A stretch of DNA of 64,000 bases from Salinicoccus halitifaciens (GTDB lineage: Bacteria; Bacillota; Bacilli; Staphylococcales; Salinicoccaceae). The notes below the pieces were generated by a model. It ran no database searches and was not told where the DNA came from. It saw only the letters and a program-made list of their open reading frames with translations. This document shows, piece by piece, positions 5,415 through 64,000 of the stretch; the stretch's first letter is position 1, and the number at the start of each line of letters is the position of its first letter. The stretch lies in contig NZ_JAJNCU010000002.1 of NCBI RefSeq assembly GCF_021026095.1, positions 124,001-188,000 on the forward strand, written 5' to 3'. The position numbers were made by a program, and so were the translations under genes.

Positions 5415-6467
5415 ATGACGAAATTGAATATCGGCCTGCTTTACGGCGGCAGATCGACGGAGCATGAAGTCTCGATGCGTTCGGCGGCAAGCATCCTTTC
5501 GGTGCTGGACAGGGAGAAATATGATGTGAACCTGATCCACATCTCGAAGGACGGGGAGTGGCTGCTTGCACCGGACAGCGCGGAGATCAGGGATTTGAGT
5601 GGTGATGCGGATGCCCGGAAACTTGCGGTGCGGCCGTCGGGACAGCTTGAGGGACTGGACGGGCTCGATGTCGTCATTCCCGTGCTGCACGGCACATTCG
5701 GCGAGGACGGCACGGTGCAGGGTCTCCTTGAGATTGCGGAAATCCCGTACGTCGGATGCAACGTCAGAAGTTCGTCCGTATGCATGGACAAGGATATGAC
5801 GAAGCGGCTTTTGAAGCTGGAAGGCATCGATGTCGCGGAATCCGTCCTCTTCAAACATCATGAAAAGGATGATGTGGACTTTGCCGCGGTGGAGGCGAAG
5901 CTCGGCCTGCCGATGTTTGTAAAACCCGTCAACCAGGGGTCATCCGTCGGCGTCTCCAAAGTGACGGATGAGGAGAGCTTCCACAAGGCGCTCGCACTTG
6001 CATTCAAGTTCGATACGAAAGTGATGGTGGAGAGCGCCCTGCAGGGACGCGAAGTCGAAGTATCCGTGCTCGGCAACGCCGACCCGTTCATTTCCGTTCC
6101 GGGTGAGATCATCCCGGACGATGGTTTTTATTCCTATGATTCCAAGTACCTCGACGAAAACGGGGCAGGGCTGGAAATCCCGGCGAAGCTCGATGAGGCG
6201 ACGGTCCTGAATCTGCAGGATGTGGCGCTGAGGACTTTCGGGGCGCTCGACTGCGAGGGCATGGCGCGGGTCGACATGTTCCTTTTGGAGGATGGGCGGA
6301 TTTTTGTCAACGAAGTCAACACCTTCCCGGGCTTCACAAGCATCAGCATGTACCCGAAGCTGCTTGAGGCCTCGGGCGTGAGCTACACCGAGCTCGTCGA
6401 CCGCCTGATTGCGCTCGCACTCGAACGCCACGAGCTGGAAGCAGGCCTCACGACCGACTTCCTGTAG
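5415..6467 (+). CDS. ddl: D-alanine--D-alanine ligase
   Basis: ATP-dependent ligation of two D-alanines for the peptidoglycan stem peptide, in the cytoplasm. The 350-residue ATP-grasp enzyme begins with LLYGGRSTEHEVS, has the GREVEVSVLG strand, the magnesium-binding VNEVNTFPG near the C-terminus and normal family length. GGAG is 8 nt before the ATG at 5415; an in-frame GTG at 5406 has no such site. It is divergent from surE across 243 bp. Its stop codon is followed at once by repeat array A1, with no ordinary terminator before the repeats. Confidence 0.95.
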   Translation: MTKLNIGLLYGGRSTEHEVSMRSAASILSVLDREKYDVNLIHISKDGEWLLAPDSAEIRDLSGDADARKLAVRPSGQLEGLDGLDVVIPVLHGTFGEDGTVQGLLEIAEIPYVGCNVRSSSVCMDKDMTKRLLKLEGIDVAESVLFKHHEKDDVDFAAVEAKLGLPMFVKPVNQGSSVGVSKVTDEESFHKALALAFKFDTKVMVESALQGREVEVSVLGNADPFISVPGEIIPDDGFYSYDSKYLDENGAGLEIPAKLDEATVLNLQDVALRTFGALDCEGMARVDMFLLEDGRIFVNEVNTFPGFTSISMYPKLLEASGVSYTELVDRLIALALERHELEAGLTTDFL

Positions 6468-6470
6468 AAG

Positions 6471-6782
6471 TTGGGGTGCGCTTTCGCAAGGTTGTGCCGG
6501 CTTTGCGGTGAAGGTTGCGAATTTCAGGTGTGATTTCGCAAGGTTGTGCCGGCTTTGCGGTGAAGGTTGCGAATTGCGGGCGTGATTTCGCAAGGTTGCG
6601 CGGGTTTTGCGATGAAGGTTACGAATTTCGGGTGTGTTTTCGCAAGGTTGCGCGGGTTTCGCGGTGAAGGTTGCGAATTTCAGGTGTAATTTCGCAAGAT
6701 TGCACCGTCTTTGCAGTGAAGGTTGCGAATTTTGGGTGTGGATTCGCAGGGTTGCACCAGCTTTGCAGTGAAGGTTGCGATT
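6471..6782. repeat. Tandem array A1: six 52-bp units of repeat family A
   Basis: The landmark CGCAAGG (CGCAGGG in the last unit) recurs at 6485, 6537, 6589, 6641, 6693 and 6745, exactly 52 bp apart. Each unit contains the inverted arms TTGCGAA and TTCGCAA about 13 nt apart. The array begins 4 bp after the ddl stop and lies between ddl and the converging oxidoreductase gene. The same landmarks and period recur at 30.4 kb and 41.3 kb. No open frame runs through it with coding character, because 52 is not a multiple of three. Confidence 0.92.
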
Positions 6783-6794
6783 AAAGATCATGCA

Positions 6795-6905
6795 GGAGAA
6801 TAAAACCCGGCCAGTCACGTCAACACCGGGGTCTCCATCCGGACTCAGAGACAAAACCCGGACAGCCGCGCGAGCACCGGTGCCTCCATCCGGACCAAGC
6901 GCGCC
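6795..6905. repeat. Array D1: two 51-bp units of repeat family D
   Basis: AAAACCCGG recurs at 6802 and 6853, 51 bp apart, each followed by CACCGG and TCTCCATCCGGAC-like or CCTCCATCCGGAC blocks. The inverted arms are CCGGAcaG-type and CATCCGG-type. On the opposite strand the spacing from CCGGATGGA to CTGTCCGG is 36 bp, the same as in array D2 at 37.6 kb. It directly follows array A1 in the same convergent junction. Confidence 0.75.
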
Positions 6906-21089: not shown

Positions 21090-21325
21090 CGTTCAGATGC
21101 AGGGATTTTCATGGCTATCTAAACGGCAGGGGCCCTCAAGTGTTTAGTTAACGAGATTTTCACGGTCATCTAAACGGCAGGGGCCCTCAAGTGTTTGGTT
21201 AGCGAGATTTTCACGGCCATCTAAACGGCAGGTGCCCTCAAGTGTTTGGTTAGCAAGATTTTCATGACTATCTGAACAGCAGAGGCCTTCAGGTGCTTAG
21301 ATAGGGTAATTTTTAAGATTGAGTG
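21090..21325. repeat. Tandem array B1: about 4.5 units of repeat family B (51 bp)
   Basis: ATCTAAACGGCAG recurs at 21117, 21168 and 21219, exactly 51 bp apart, with a further diverged unit on each side. On the minus strand each unit reads CCGTTTAGAT, about 20 nt, CTAACCAAAC, CTTGAGGGCCCCTG, which is the family found in the opposite orientation at 63.7 kb. It lies between the converging genes nagB and natB. Confidence 0.9.
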
Positions 21326-30416: not shown

Positions 30417-30782
30417 CCGCGAGCGGGTCGCGGAATCGCAACATCAGCCCGGAACTGCTTCGAAGGTTGCGAAAACAGGTGGCGAAATCGCAACATTGAC
30501 CCGGTATTGCCCCGAAGGTTGCGGAAACAGGTGCCGGAATCGCAACGTTGTGCCGGGATTGTCTCGAAGGTTGCGAAAACAGGTGGCGAAATCGCAACAT
30601 TGACCTGGGATTGCCCCGAAGATTGCGAAAACAGGTGCCGGAATCGCAACGTTGTGCCGGGATTGTCCCGAAGGTTGCGGAAACAGGTGGCGGAATCGCA
30701 ACATCAGCCCGAAACTGCCCTGAAGGTGCGAAAACAGGTGCCGAAATCGCAATATCAGCCCGCAAAGACCTCAAAGGTTACG
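30417..30782. repeat. Tandem array A2: seven units of repeat family A (52 bp)
   Basis: GCAAC (GCAAT in the last) recurs at 30438, 30490, 30542, 30594, 30646, 30698 and 30749; steps are 52 bp except a final 51 caused by one missing base. Each unit has TCGCAAC, about 23 nt, GTTGCGA/GTTGCGG. Units 2 and 4 (ACATTGACC type) and units 3 and 5 (ACGTTGTGCC type) resemble each other, so a 104-bp higher-order duplication has occurred. The last GGTTACGAA supplies the stop codon of nagA on the other strand. Confidence 0.92.
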
Positions 30783-37857: not shown

Positions 37858-38907
37858 TCATTCATTCAAAGCTTTTTCCAGTACGGAGATGTTCTCGCGC
37901 ATGATCGACTGGTATGTGGCATCATCCGGATCATCCGCCGTCAGCACTTCCAGGTTGTGGAACTCCAGCGGCTCTGTATCAGTGGAGTTCTGGATTGTAT
38001 CCGTGATGCGGGAAGTGATGTTCTGCTCATACAAAATATAATCTATATTGTGGGATTCGATGTCATCAACAATGGTCATCAATTCCTGCTGGCTCGGTTC
38101 TTCATTGTTCAGGCCGTTGATGGCGGCCTGCTCAAAACCGTATCTGTCAGCGAGATAACCGATGGATTCATGTGAAATGTAGACAGTGTCTCGTGCAGTT
38201 TCGTCAGTGACCGCTGCCAGTTCCTGATCAATTTCCTCCAGGTCACTGATGAGCGCTTCATAGTTCTCTTCATACATGGATGCTTCTTCAGGATTCAAGG
38301 CAATAAGCTTATCTTTGATCGCTTCTGCCATGGACTGGGAAAATACAGGGTCCAGCCAGATGTGGGGATCGGTCGACCCGTGATCATGATGGTGTTCCTC
38401 ATGTCCATGGTCCTCATGTTCCTCGTGCTCATGCTCTTCGTGGTCCTCATGTTCTTCATGCCCGTGCTCTTCATGCTCCTCATGGCCGTGTTCATCATCT
38501 TCCTCATGTCCATGCTCCTCATGCTCATGGTCATGATCGTACTCCAGCAACTCTTCATCCGAGATGTCTGCAGCAGCGGGCAGAAATTCAGTATGGCCGT
38601 CGACGGCATTTTTGATGGTGTTTGCGACCTGATCGAATTCATCTGTCGTGTAGATGAAAAGGTCTCCTTCGGCGAAGCCGACCATATCCTGCTGTGTCGG
38701 CTCATAAGTATGGATGTCCACGCCTTTTGGATAAATCGTCTCGACCTGGACGGTGTCCCCGCCGATCTGTTCGGTGAAGCTTTTAAGCGGGAAGACGGTG
38801 GTGTAGACTTCAAGTGTCCCGCCGTCTTCGGCGCTGCTGTTTTCATTGCTGCAGGCGGCGAGCGCGAGCAGCATTACAGGTATCAATATTTTTATTATCC
38901 GAGTCAT
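37858..38907 (-). CDS. Zinc ABC transporter substrate-binding lipoprotein (ZnuA/AdcA-like)
   Basis: A 349-residue cluster A-I metal-binding lipoprotein that captures zinc outside the membrane. The lipobox ends at Cys19 (LAAC). Metal ligands are His66 in VDIHTYEP, His182 in DPHIWLDP and a later His in ISHESIGYLA. Residues 124-176 form a long flexible loop of His, Glu and Asp only, typical of zinc-specific members. The ZinT-like C-terminal domain of AdcA is absent. A Zur box sits in its promoter. The permease and ATPase (ZnuBC) genes are not adjacent. Confidence 0.92.
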   Translation of the reverse strand: MTRIIKILIPVMLLALAACSNENSSAEDGGTLEVYTTVFPLKSFTEQIGGDTVQVETIYPKGVDIHTYEPTQQDMVGFAEGDLFIYTTDEFDQVANTIKNAVDGHTEFLPAAADISDEELLEYDHDHEHEEHGHEEDDEHGHEEHEEHGHEEHEDHEEHEHEEHEDHGHEEHHHDHGSTDPHIWLDPVFSQSMAEAIKDKLIALNPEEASMYEENYEALISDLEEIDQELAAVTDETARDTVYISHESIGYLADRYGFEQAAINGLNNEEPSQQELMTIVDDIESHNIDYILYEQNITSRITDTIQNSTDTEPLEFHNLEVLTADDPDDATYQSIMRENISVLEKALNE

Positions 38908-40868: not shown

Positions 40869-41153
40869 ATGAAGAAGTTGATCGTAATACTGATACTGCT
40901 GGCCGCGGTGATCCTCGTGCTTTCTCTGCCGATCGCACCGGAGACGAGCGACACCGAAAGGGTGATCGTCGACCACACCCTCGGCGTGATGGTGCACCCA
41001 GCCTGCTTTGAAGACGCGGGGCTCACCAACTTCATAGATGAAGTATCCTACAGCAACGCCGTGGAAAACTATGAATATGAAATTTTGGGAGAATGCTCGG
41101 AAGAGCGGCTGCAGGCAGGAAGAACAAGTATCTTGAGTAAGATATTTGATTAA
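40869..41153 (+). CDS. Membrane-anchored or secreted small protein
   Basis: A 94-residue protein. Residues 1-20 (MKKLIVILILLAAVILVLSL) form a signal anchor; the rest is an acidic extracytoplasmic domain with two Cys (CFEDAG near 47 and GECSEER near 75) that could form a disulfide. No lipobox. AGGTGACAGG precedes the ATG. It diverges from the SOS-controlled YolD gene, so RNA polymerases start within 80 bp of the LexA box. No family is recognised. Confidence 0.7.
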   Translation: MKKLIVILILLAAVILVLSLPIAPETSDTERVIVDHTLGVMVHPACFEDAGLTNFIDEVSYSNAVENYEYEILGECSEERLQAGRTSILSKIFD

Positions 41154-41251: not shown

Positions 41252-41278
41252 AAAAGGGACCGGACACGGTCCCTTTTT
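41252..41278 (+). terminator. Terminator before array A3
   Basis: AAAAGGGACCG (41252-41262), 4-nt loop, CGGTCCCTTTT (41267-41277): perfect 11-bp stem ending in a T run, about 100 bp after the stop of the small protein gene. Confidence 0.9.
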
Positions 41279-41284
41279 GTGTCT

Positions 41285-41935
41285 TCAGAGGATGGGGATG
41301 GTTGGGAATCGCAACGTTTGCTCGGAATGCATCTGAAGGTGGCGGAAACCGGGGTGCAGAATCGCAACGCTGACCCGGAATACAGCACAAGGTTGCAAAA
41401 CCGGGGTGCAGAATCGCAACGTTGGCCAGGGAGACACCGCAAGGTTGCGAAATCAGGGTGTGAAATCGCAATGTTGGCCAGGGAGACACCGCAAGGTTGC
41501 GAAATCGGGGTGTAGAATCGCAACGTTGGCCAGGGGGACACCGCAAGGTTGCGAAATCAGGGTGTGAAATCGCAACGTTGGCCAGGGAGACACCGCAAGG
41601 TTGCGAAATCAGGGTGTAGAATCGCAACGTTGGCCAGGGAGACACCGCAAGGTTGCGAAATCAGGGTGTAGAATCGCAACGTTGGCCAGGGGGACACCGC
41701 AAGGTTGCGAAATCAGGGTGTGAAATCGCAACGTTGGCCAGGGAGACACCGCAAGGTTGCGAAATCGGGGTGTAGAATCGCAACGTTGATGCAGAATCCA
41801 TCTGAAGGTTGCGAAAACAGGGTGCGGAAACGCAACTTTGACCGGGAAGACAACGCAAAGTTGCGAAATCAGGTGTGAACCCGCTACGTTGGCCAGGAAG
41901 ACACCGCAAAGTTGCGAAACCCGCGCGCCGCAACA
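41285..41935. repeat. Tandem array A3: twelve units of repeat family A (52 bp)
   Basis: GCAAC (with small variants) occurs at 41311, 41364, 41416, 41468, 41520, 41572, 41624, 41676, 41728, 41780, 41832 and 41883. Eight consecutive steps are exactly 52 bp and the central units are nearly identical (CGTTGGCCAGGGAGACACCG core), while the outer ones are diverged. Arms TCGCAAC and GTTGCGA are inverted within each unit. The two forms GTGTGAAATC and GTGTAGAATC alternate irregularly. Located between converging genes. Confidence 0.95.
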
Positions 41936-41957: not shown

Positions 41958-42004
41958 AAAAATAAAGACCGGCCGGAACTGCAAACGCAGTTCCATCCGG
42001 TCTT
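41958..42004 (-). terminator. Terminator of ppaC
   Basis: A two-part stem (AAGACCGG with CCGGTCTT, GGAACTGC with GCAGTTCC, AAAC loop) followed on the minus strand by a T-rich run. Confidence 0.85.
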
Positions 42005-42024: not shown

Positions 42025-42945
42025 TTATCCCAGTGCCTTCGTGATGTTCGGCACGACTTGTTTTTTACGGGAGACGACGCCTTCAAGAAGCGCGGTGTCT
42101 TCATCGAGGGAGACGTCGAATGCCTGCTCGACGATGCCTGCATCGGAGCCGAGGGCGATGACCGTCGAATTGGATTCGAGGATGTTCGTGATGACGAGGA
42201 CGAACAGGTCATAATTTTCCTTCTCGATCTCTTTTTGGATGGCCTCGGTGATTTCCGGTTTACGGTCGAGCACTTCATCCACATCGACGACGTTGATCTG
42301 TGCGATGCGTGTCGTCTTCGGTCCCATGTCGAAAGTTTTCGCATCGGCCGTGACGAGTGATTCGGCGGATTTGTCCTTCGTTGAAGCGCCTGCCTTCAGC
42401 ATCTCAATGCCGTATTCGTCGGGGTCGACGCCGGCGATCTCCTGGAGCGCACGCGCTGCCGCGATGTCTTCATCGGTCGTCGTCGGCGATTTGAATAAAA
42501 GCGTATCGGAAATGATCGCCGACAACATCAGTCCGGCCATTTCACGGCTGATTTCGAAGTCATTCTCCTTGTACATCTTATGAAGGATCGTCGCCGTGCA
42601 TCCGACGGGCTCAGCCCTGTAGAAGAGCGGGGATTCCGTCTGGAAATTTGCGATGCGGTGATGGTCGACGACTTTCAGGATATTCGCCTGTCCGATGTTT
42701 TCAGCGGACTGCTGGAATTCGTTGTGGTCGACAAGGATGACGTCGTCACCTTCACCGACGCCTTCGATCAGTTCCGGTGCCCCGACGCCGAAGTGGTCGA
42801 GTGCGTACTGTGTCTCGGGGCCGACTTCGCCGAGGCGCGTCGCGACGGCTTCGTTGCCGAGTTTAGTTTCAATATCTGCGAGTACAATCGCAGAGGTGAT
42901 TGTATCCGTATCGGGATTCTGATGTCCAAAAATTTTAACAGCCAT
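42025..42945 (-). CDS. ppaC: Manganese-dependent inorganic pyrophosphatase
   Basis: Hydrolyses pyrophosphate to phosphate in the cytoplasm. The 306-residue class C (DHH family) enzyme has the metal motifs GHQNPDTDT (7-15), LVDHNE, VDHHRIANF and EPVGCTATI, and the C-terminal substrate-binding SRKKQVVP. Length matches the stand-alone staphylococcal and bacillar enzyme without CBS domains. It has its own terminator next to array A3. The upstream region to pncA is short, and both genes are read in the same direction. Confidence 0.95.
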   Translation of the reverse strand: MAVKIFGHQNPDTDTITSAIVLADIETKLGNEAVATRLGEVGPETQYALDHFGVGAPELIEGVGEGDDVILVDHNEFQQSAENIGQANILKVVDHHRIANFQTESPLFYRAEPVGCTATILHKMYKENDFEISREMAGLMLSAIISDTLLFKSPTTTDEDIAAARALQEIAGVDPDEYGIEMLKAGASTKDKSAESLVTADAKTFDMGPKTTRIAQINVVDVDEVLDRKPEITEAIQKEIEKENYDLFVLVITNILESNSTVIALGSDAGIVEQAFDVSLDEDTALLEGVVSRKKQVVPNITKALG

Positions 42946-48009: not shown

Positions 48010-48185
48010 GAAGGAGGGCCTGCTTATTCGTTGCGGAAAATGCCGCTGAATGAGCAGGCAGGGAGGAAATCTGCTTACTCGGTATGGAAATTGCTTCTGA
48101 ATGAGCAGGCAGGAATAAAAACTGCTTACTCATCACGAAAATCAGGCCTGAATGAGCAGACACTGACGAAATCGCCTCACGACCA
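48010..48185. repeat. Tandem array C: three and a part units of repeat family C (51 bp)
   Basis: CTGCTTATTC/CTGCTTACTC occurs at 48020, 48071 and 48122, 51 bp apart, with a decayed fourth start at 48173. In each unit GAATGAGCAG follows about 18 nt later; it is the inverted partner of the first block (8-9 of 10 positions pair). The array lies between codirectional genes, after the terminator of the NAD operon and before purB. Confidence 0.85.
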
Positions 48186-63660: not shown

Positions 63661-64000
63661 TGCCGGCTATCTGGAGGGGGCCTGGCTGTTTAGATAGTCT
63701 TAATAATCCGGCTAACTGAACACTTGGAGGTCCTTGCCGTTTAGATAGCCTTAAAAATTCAGCTATCTGAACACTTGAAGGCCCTTGCCGTTTAGATAGT
63801 CTTAGAAATCCGGATATCTAAACGCTTGGAGGTCCTTGCCGTTTAGATAGCCTTAATAATCCGGTTATCTGAACACTTGAAGGCCCTAGCCGTTTAGTTA
63901 GTCTCAAAAATCCGGCTAACTGAACGCTTGAAGGCCCTTGCCGTTTAGATAGCCTTAATAGTCCAGCTATCTGAACACTTGGAGGCCCTTGCCGTTTAGA
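63661..64000. repeat. Tandem array B2: at least 6.5 units of repeat family B (51 bp), cut by the window end
   Basis: CCGTTTAG (CTGTTTAG in the first) occurs at 63686, 63737, 63788, 63839, 63890, 63941 and 63992, always 51 bp apart. Each unit holds GTTTAGATAG and about 14 nt later CTATCTGAAC or a variant, followed by ACTTGAAGGCCCTTG. In the unit at 63890 both arms carry the same change (AGTTAG with CTAACT). It is the inverse orientation of array B1. Confidence 0.92.

Follow-up and report, generated by a model that had tools for sequence, protein, structure and literature searches.

A3 is a tandem array in the gap between two convergent genes of the window, a term that denotes the whole 64,000-nucleotide stretch of Salinicoccus halitifaciens DNA analyzed here. 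The genome spans 2.68 Mb in 11 contigs. One neighbor of A3 is ppaC, which encodes a manganese-dependent inorganic pyrophosphatase. The other is a 94-aa open reading frame (ORF) with matching text, as judged by eye, in Salinicoccus kekensis, Salinicoccus sp. YB14-2 and Lacicoccus qingdaonensis. The locus contains the following features (window positions).

40869-41153, + strand: 94-aa ORF, convergent neighbor of A3 (ORF list)
41252-41278, + strand: terminator-like inverted repeat between the 94-aa ORF and A3 (by eye)
41310-41916, + strand: A3, whole array, 12 units of 52 bp including decayed edges (position-weight scan)
41310-41414, + strand: left edge of A3, two decayed 52-bp units with a step of 53 between them, consensus identity 0.62 and 0.79 (position-weight scan)
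41415-41778, + strand: core of A3, seven near-identical 52-bp units CGCAA-N25-TTGCG-N17 (position-weight scan and consensus identity)
41779-41916, + strand: right edge of A3, three decayed units, last step 51 (position-weight scan and consensus identity)
41965-42004, - strand: terminator-like inverted repeat of ppaC, between ppaC and A3 (by eye)
42025-42945, - strand: ppaC, the other convergent neighbor of A3 (NCBIfam NF003877, 429 bits, cut-off 283)

Inverted repeats similar to those flanking A3 stand in the same places in S. kekensis and strain YB14-2 (by eye). Both sides of A3 carry a terminator-like site in our own scan; a separate tool-based scan lists neither 41252-41278 nor 41965-42004. 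A 35-mer of A3, with up to three mismatches, occurs eight times in the window, and its maximum in 100 shuffles is zero. Across the genome, the pattern CGCAA-N(23-27)-TTGCG is found at 71 places, compared with 5 for the reversed pattern. The tetranucleotide GTAG, which like CGTC is a terminal tag of REP elements, is present in the linker of some A3 units, but the consensus of family A lacks it.

A3 belongs to a set of satellite-like intergenic arrays distributed across the genome. TRF reports three period-52 arrays in the window, at 6467-6780 (A1), 30426-30752 (A2) and 41336-41919 (A3), and the arrays other than A3 are as follows.

6467-6796, + strand: A1, family-A array of six 52-bp units, the last degenerate (TRF and unit scan)
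6802-6895, unstranded: two 51-bp family-E units (CCGGA-type) directly beside A1
21104-21304, unstranded: family-B 51-bp array (CTAAAC/GTTTAG) lying in a convergent gap, with about one family-D unit after it
30426-30782, + strand: A2, family-A array of about seven units (TRF and gapped alignment)
48020-48172, unstranded: family-D 51-bp array (CTGCTTA/CTGCTCA-type palindrome)
63681-64000, unstranded: family-B 51-bp array in the opposite orientation, extending beyond the end of the window as far as G000:C4:188219

The family-A unit scan missed some decayed units, such as units six and seven of A2. TRF scores A2 higher as a 104-bp repeat (474) than as a 52-bp repeat (402). Arrays of families A and E (51-bp) lie side by side in both S. 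halitifaciens and S. kekensis (window 6467-6895; G002:C5:263427-264105 in S. kekensis; L177 3699-4341), and they also adjoin at G000:C1:120 kb in the S. halitifaciens genome. A coding repeat of 24 bp (CATG/TCCTCA text) occupies window 38393-38529 inside the - strand ORF 37858-38907, where it is predicted to encode a histidine-rich stretch that may form a metal-binding loop. Similar 24-bp repeats are found a few kb downstream of ppaC in L037 (S. kekensis) and L038.

Homogenization of family-A units within each locus

The initial annotation described A1, A2 and A3 as one unit at three loci that share the CGCAA/TTGCG landmarks and an exact 52-bp step. The shared architecture holds. The step is not 52 everywhere, given that the outermost steps of A3 are 53 and 51 and that a single 51-bp step occurs toward the right edge of A2. 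The annotation further proposed that the text is homogeneous within each locus and different between loci, and the alignment and tree that it called for bear this out. Unit identity among A1-A3 averages 0.790 within loci (91 pairs) versus 0.593 between loci (162 pairs), and on the tree the locus label changes twice, which is the minimum, whereas the array-index label changes 19 times. Clustering of units by their position in the array, the outcome that would speak against local duplication, was not seen: units of the same index across A1-A3 are 0.602 identical (16 pairs), hardly closer than 0.593. As also described, the center of A3 is uniform and its edges are decayed. Units 3-9 are 0.94-1.00 identical to the A3 consensus, and the two left and three right units are 0.62-0.79 identical.

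The same relationships extend to a set of 143 family-A units in 23 arrays, 15 from S. halitifaciens and 8 from S. kekensis. The nearest neighbor of a unit lies in the same array for 120 units, in the orthologous array for 17 and elsewhere for 6; shuffled labels give 6.2 same-array neighbors. Mean unit identity is the same, 0.784, within a locus and between orthologous loci; for all other pairs of loci it is 0.546 inside one genome and 0.549 across the two genomes. A tree of the 128 units with a score of at least 25 requires 33 locus-label changes (minimum 22, shuffled mean 104.5). Of the 21 family-A loci that comprise at least four units, 19 have decayed edges, with an identity to the own array of 0.759 at the edge and 0.870 in the interior. 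Local turnover by whole units is thus very probable.

Orthologous arrays in S. kekensis and more distant congeners

The closest genome found is that of S. kekensis DSM 23173, which NCBI places in the Staphylococcaceae and whose ppaC (L037, which is on the G002 contig) shares 98% identity with that of S. halitifaciens. The two genomes yielded 277 reciprocal best protein pairs with an average identity of 94%. The ppaC genes of Lacicoccus alkaliphilus, L. qingdaonensis, Salinicoccus sp. YB14-2 and the metagenome-assembled genome (MAG) UBA3372 are 87-89% identical.

Among 238 orthologous gaps (contig C4 of S. halitifaciens, C5 of S. kekensis), an array occupies 16 in S. halitifaciens, 14 in S. kekensis and 11 in both, against 0.94 expected by chance. 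Therefore, the spread of the arrays preceded their local turnover: family-A units already occupied many addresses before the two species split. Together with the clustering by locus, this supports the proposal in the initial annotation that units were duplicated locally on copies that had spread earlier. The exact family-A tandem pattern is found only in these two genomes of the 40 searched, a set that includes S. halitifaciens itself and six genomes of the genus. Against more distant congeners, 2 addresses are shared where 0.23 are expected and 3 where 0.47 are expected, an excess to which the preference for convergent gaps contributes. No address is shared with L. alkaliphilus (5 gaps with an array here, 1 there).

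Unit numbers, which the initial annotation suggested comparing between strains, were compared between the two species, with one genome for each, and mostly differ. A3 has about 12 units versus 5 in S. kekensis, and TRF copy numbers are 11.2 versus 4.2 for A3, 6.3 versus 9.2 for A2 and 11.2 versus 4.6 for an array at 352 kb; those of A1 are nearly equal (6.0 versus 5.9). Where S. halitifaciens has an array of seven units at C4:339.8 kb, S. kekensis has just one unit, and the counterpart of the 41-bp array at C4:198.0 kb is one degenerate unit. The orthologous arrays differ in sequence as well, so that identical numbers and sequences in a relative, the other outcome unfavorable to local duplication, were not seen. 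Across six orthologous pairs, the array of the unit's own species is the closer one for 60 of 75 units, ranging from 6 of 10 (A1) to 14 of 14. Since the split, whole units have been gained and lost within each locus, resulting in local homogenization and decayed edges.

Unit length and half-sites

Gapped alignment of the 23 family-A arrays contains 832 mismatches versus 16 indel events, and eight of these events form four deletion-insertion pairs that preserve length. How many indels should be expected? For each substitution, array-free orthologous gaps between the two species have 0.108 indels of at most 5 bp, a calibration that supersedes an uncalibrated control rate of 0.22. Arrays simulated at the rate of 0.108 and aligned with the same program contain 87 indels (Poisson probability of 16 or fewer, about 1e-20), and indels in the arrays are thus about five-fold below the calibrated expectation. 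Because unequal exchange removes substitutions and indels alike, the indel deficit points to a constraint on length. We consider it likely that this constraint on unit length acts at the DNA level.

Spacing within the unit is similarly rigid. Raising the number of allowed spacing combinations from 9 to 441 increases the matches only from 47/47 to 50/49 (forward/reverse) in S. halitifaciens and from 40/42 to 43/45 in S. kekensis. Eight of the ten half-site columns underwent 0-3 parsimony changes, and the third base of each half-site underwent 10, whereas 27 of the other 42 unit columns underwent 15-31. The text between the half-sites drifts, and the two inverted TTRCG half-sites and their 25/17 spacing are fixed. 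The length lock, like the period classes and the convergent bias described below, goes beyond the initial annotation.

Columns 7 and 29 of family A, which are related by the dyad, are complementary in 1 of 23 locus consensuses versus 6.3 expected from shuffles. They are mostly G-G, with C-C at four loci, and the family-A unit seems, from these consensuses, to pair half-sites of two subtypes.

Placement between genes and exchange of families

Arrays are found in 11 of 42 convergent gaps versus 8 of 196 other gaps in the comparison of S. halitifaciens with S. kekensis (p = 4e-5), and comparisons with three further congeners give a bias in the same direction (p = 0.009, 0.0005 and 0.0008). Among 45 arrays from three samples, 26 were called convergent, 15 co-directional and 4 divergent, with at least one of the 15 co-directional calls being wrong: the ppaC locus of YB14-2 (G005) is convergent, and its small ORF was missed by the gene caller. 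Three of the four divergent-gap arrays in the large samples consist of 41-bp units with arms ATCGCTCA or ATCGGCCAA (G000:C4:62632, G000:C4:198094 and G002:C5:337106), two of them sharing an orthologous address. Another array called divergent is a 52-bp one in L180.

Of 52 convergent sides, 28 have a terminator-like site separating the gene from the array, compared with 96 of 1040 random genomic segments, the latter being mostly coding. Such sites are present on both sides of 9 of the 26 convergent arrays, including A3. Given that only these 9 have sites on both sides and that A2 abuts its neighboring genes, not every array is clearly outside transcripts.

The family found at a given address can differ among congeners. 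The address at C4:204.3 kb is occupied by family A in S. halitifaciens and by family D in both S. kekensis and YB14-2; L. qingdaonensis has a 51-bp array there, and its gap also contains D-type half-sites. At C4:187.6 kb, the 51-bp family B of two species is replaced in L. qingdaonensis by a 41-bp array of other text, and YB14-2 and L. alkaliphilus have no array. The ppaC address carries family F in YB14-2 and E-like text in UBA3372, and no array in L. qingdaonensis or L. alkaliphilus. Arrays of other sequence also lie within about 0.5 kb downstream of ppaC, at much the same address as A3, in three other species: Phocicoccus schoeneichii (L051 6120-6522, 52 bp), Aliicoccus persicus (L052 6339-6728, 41 bp) and Bacillus sp. 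FJAT-29790 (L110 5985-6399, 52 bp).

Periods and palindromes across families and genera

The 45 intergenic arrays, which come from three 370-400-kb samples of the genus, have periods of 41, 51 or 52 bp except for one of 54. The exception (G000:C4:122078-122204) lies in a convergent gap of the S. halitifaciens genome. The consensus palindrome score of the 45 arrays averages 7.2 versus 4.2 when shuffled, and 26 of the 45 are individually significant (p of 0.05 or less). With other genera included, 75 of 84 intergenic arrays have a period of 41, 51 or 52 bp. The counts are 1 at 27, 19 at 41, 2 at 42, 1 at 50, 31 at 51, 25 at 52 and 1 each at 54, 59, 61, 69 and 82; one array was entered twice (G014 and L056 overlap), and one of the two at 42 (L181) is elsewhere called coding. 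Fourteen of the 84 arrays come from stretches fetched for family A, and 62 of the remaining 70 still have a period of 41, 51 or 52. The families are not all independent, with 57 of the 84 arrays in one loose similarity cluster. In 77 arrays of period 41, 42, 51 or 52, 370 of 383 scored unit-to-unit steps are exactly at the period. A helical turn of DNA takes 10.4-10.5 bp, and thus 41, 51-52 and 61 bp correspond to about four, five and six turns. A Rayleigh test for a 10.2-bp quantum (R = 0.84, 23 clusters) was inflated by the heap at 41 and was set aside.

Family F has the arms CGTAA/TTACG with spacings of N24 and N17, and its similarity to family A averages 10.5 versus a null of 7.23 (66 pairs, three F arrays). 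The exact F pattern is found in YB14-2 only, plus one isolated match in G055. Thus, of six genomes of the genus, family A is in two and family F in one; family D is in five. An inner segment that seemed by eye to be common to families B and D scored 7.29 versus the null of 7.23 in a systematic comparison and was dropped. In families B, D and F, as read from consensus units, the half-site distances inside the unit are not all whole turns, and only the unit total is.

Arrays with 41- or 52-bp units are also found in Aliicoccus, Phocicoccus, Macrococcus, Macrococcoides, S. massiliensis and a Bacillus. No such array was found in 80 kb each of S. halodurans, S. luteus, S. hispanicus and S. carnicancri (G006-G009) or in the 20-60-kb samples of G011, G012, G016, G017, G018, G020 and G021. 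Some of these array-free samples have an array elsewhere in the genome, namely one beside ppaC in G012 and one of 42 bp in G020. This patchy occurrence indicates that the class is not needed by the group at large.

Discussion

What keeps the length of these units constant while their text turns over? We propose that A3 and its relatives are satellite-like, STAR/BIME-like arrays under a DNA-level spacing constraint, perhaps as phased protein-binding dyads. We regard this as the best explanation of the whole and as a fairly probable one. In this view, joint action of the dyads as phased DNA sites would be what keeps the array at its length. A 52-bp step would bring each half-site back to about the same helix face after five turns, and steps of 41 and 51 bp would serve the same purpose in other families. 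New units would arise via slippage or unequal recombination, and those of the wrong length would be selected out. The arrays would most likely serve as nucleoprotein or topological elements in the quiet zone that separates convergent genes, a putative role comparable to that of the BIME-2 arrays of E. coli, which DNA gyrase binds and cleaves. The invariant half-sites, the length lock and the location are the reasons for considering such a role, and the specific claim that the length constraint reflects phased protein binding or a topological function between convergent genes is made tentatively.

The alternative that survives best is that of a neutral minisatellite, a by-product of slippage or unequal recombination that is tolerated in promoter-free convergent gaps and whose length and half-sites were inherited from a recent ancestor. 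Such a minisatellite predicts the local turnover, the edge decay and the convergent location. Furthermore, the inheritance may be recent, given that families A and F are confined to two and one of the six genus genomes, and the class is missing from samples of several relatives. The arrays may also be neutral ones whose length variants were lost by chance. However, drift should generate indels in proportion to substitutions, rather than five-fold fewer, and neutrality leaves unexplained both the invariant half-sites beside freely varying text and the recurrence of the same few periods across differing sequences and other genera. We therefore consider this explanation unlikely, although it deserves to be weighed seriously.

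An RNA-level element, in which hairpin arrays act as terminators, mRNA 3' protectors or attenuators, is improbable. The units are inverted repeats, arms reach 8-13 bp in several arrays of families other than A, and family-A consensus units, folded as RNA, have a mean z-score of -1.4 (23 loci, both strands). However, the invariant arm of family A is only five bases long, and its inner pairs show no covariation and pair no better than shuffled ones. The arm mismatches on the + strand (9 G.T, 20 A.C and 8 other) at most favor a - strand RNA and leave the strand undecided. Moreover, no Rfam family matches the window at the gathering threshold, and A3 and eight others of the 26 convergent arrays are enclosed by terminator-like sites.

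It is more improbable still that the arrays are mobile palindromes, each family moved by its own transposase (REP/RAYT-like or MITE-like) and each array grown by adjacent insertion. The families are dispersed to many loci, and different families occupy one address among congeners. The species-specific arms of families A and F resemble the REP-RAYT co-evolution reported in the excerpted text of PMC2817692. Nevertheless, units match their own array and not other loci, a pattern that insertion from elsewhere would not produce, and A3 has no match in plasmid and phage collections. A profile search limited to the Y1 transposase (PF01797), which is matched in 5 of 14 genomes, found none in the S. 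halitifaciens genome. Finally, the arrays have the repeat-spacer look of a CRISPR or a similar system, and the misidentification of such arrays as CRISPRs is documented (PMC5294841, in part), but the absence of Cas1 from the S. halitifaciens genome (the search was positive in 9 of 14 genomes) and spacers that are near-copies of one another within a locus rule this out for practical purposes.

Returning to spacing-constrained arrays, the data suggest that repeat spacing, not text, is what matters. A broader formulation, which we offer as a rather doubtful conjecture, is an element class defined by geometry instead of sequence and located in convergent gaps of some Staphylococcaceae and relatives. 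Its members would be head-to-tail palindromic units of a few lengths about one helical turn apart (41, 51-52 and perhaps 61 bp). Many sequences would serve and would be interchangeable at one address, and the half-site text could change genome-wide with dyad and spacing kept (CGCAA/TTGCG in A, CGTAA/TTACG in F). If this is true, the class would be a sequence-plastic, phase-locked chromosome element that is read by DNA shape or by fast-evolving dimeric proteins. Conserved length without conserved text, orthologous addresses and natural one-unit/many-unit pairs make the question of function testable. The arrays also warn against reading such repeats as CRISPRs or judging function by sequence conservation alone.

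How do the arrays relate to known repeats? The open-access literature, at the level of titles and abstract openings, offers no account of Salinicoccus arrays or of a 41/51/52-bp class among the matches listed. The arrays behave as products of local tandem duplication in the manner of minisatellites, with units closest to their own array and copy number varying at orthologous addresses. Eukaryotic satellite DNA is characterized by concerted evolution within the array, a homogeneous center with decayed edges, higher-order repeats and a fixed monomer length. The present arrays share these traits, including a higher-order repeat (A2, 104 bp), but they are short, bacterial and placed at many addresses, and no chromatin reason for their length is known. 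The REP/BIME elements of enterobacteria are palindromic intergenic units that are often clustered, according to the parts of PMC2817692 and PMC3733652 used here, and binding of gyrase, IHF and DNA polymerase I to BIMEs is reported in work cited in PMC2817692. A palindromic intergenic unit in arrays is likewise found here, and REP/BIME arrays offer a functional analogy, but the present units are of fixed length and head-to-tail, not alternating REPs as in the excerpted accounts. Membership in the RAYT/REP system is rejected because the Y1 transposase is absent.

The closest parallel in behavior is provided by the STAR elements of Staphylococcus aureus, first described by Cramton et al., whose host is a relative of the present one. 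In the excerpted account of Purves et al. (2012, PMC3532100), STAR consists of intergenic units of 14 bp plus 40-44 bp without a known function. The text between motifs is locus-specific and near-identical within a locus, unit number expands and contracts locally, and the last ("anchor") spacer is distinct. The present arrays share the intergenic tandem units with locus-specific, locally homogenized text, as well as the local expansion and contraction and the distinct end spacer. As of that 2012 text, no function was known for STAR and comparable intergenic repeats of bacteria. However, Purves et al. found no STAR neighborhood common to different species, in contrast to the 11 gaps shared with S. 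kekensis, and the same excerpts do not describe a convergent bias, a fixed 52-bp length or family exchange at one address. The arrays are not STAR elements because the defining 14-bp motif T(G/A/T)TGTTG(G/T)GGCCC(C/A), TNTGTTGNGGCCC, is absent, with no exact match in the genome and none in the window with one mismatch. In Staphylococcus borealis, the unit of an array with a 59-bp period (L063 10566-10709) carries the STAR motif on the reverse strand, as seen by eye.
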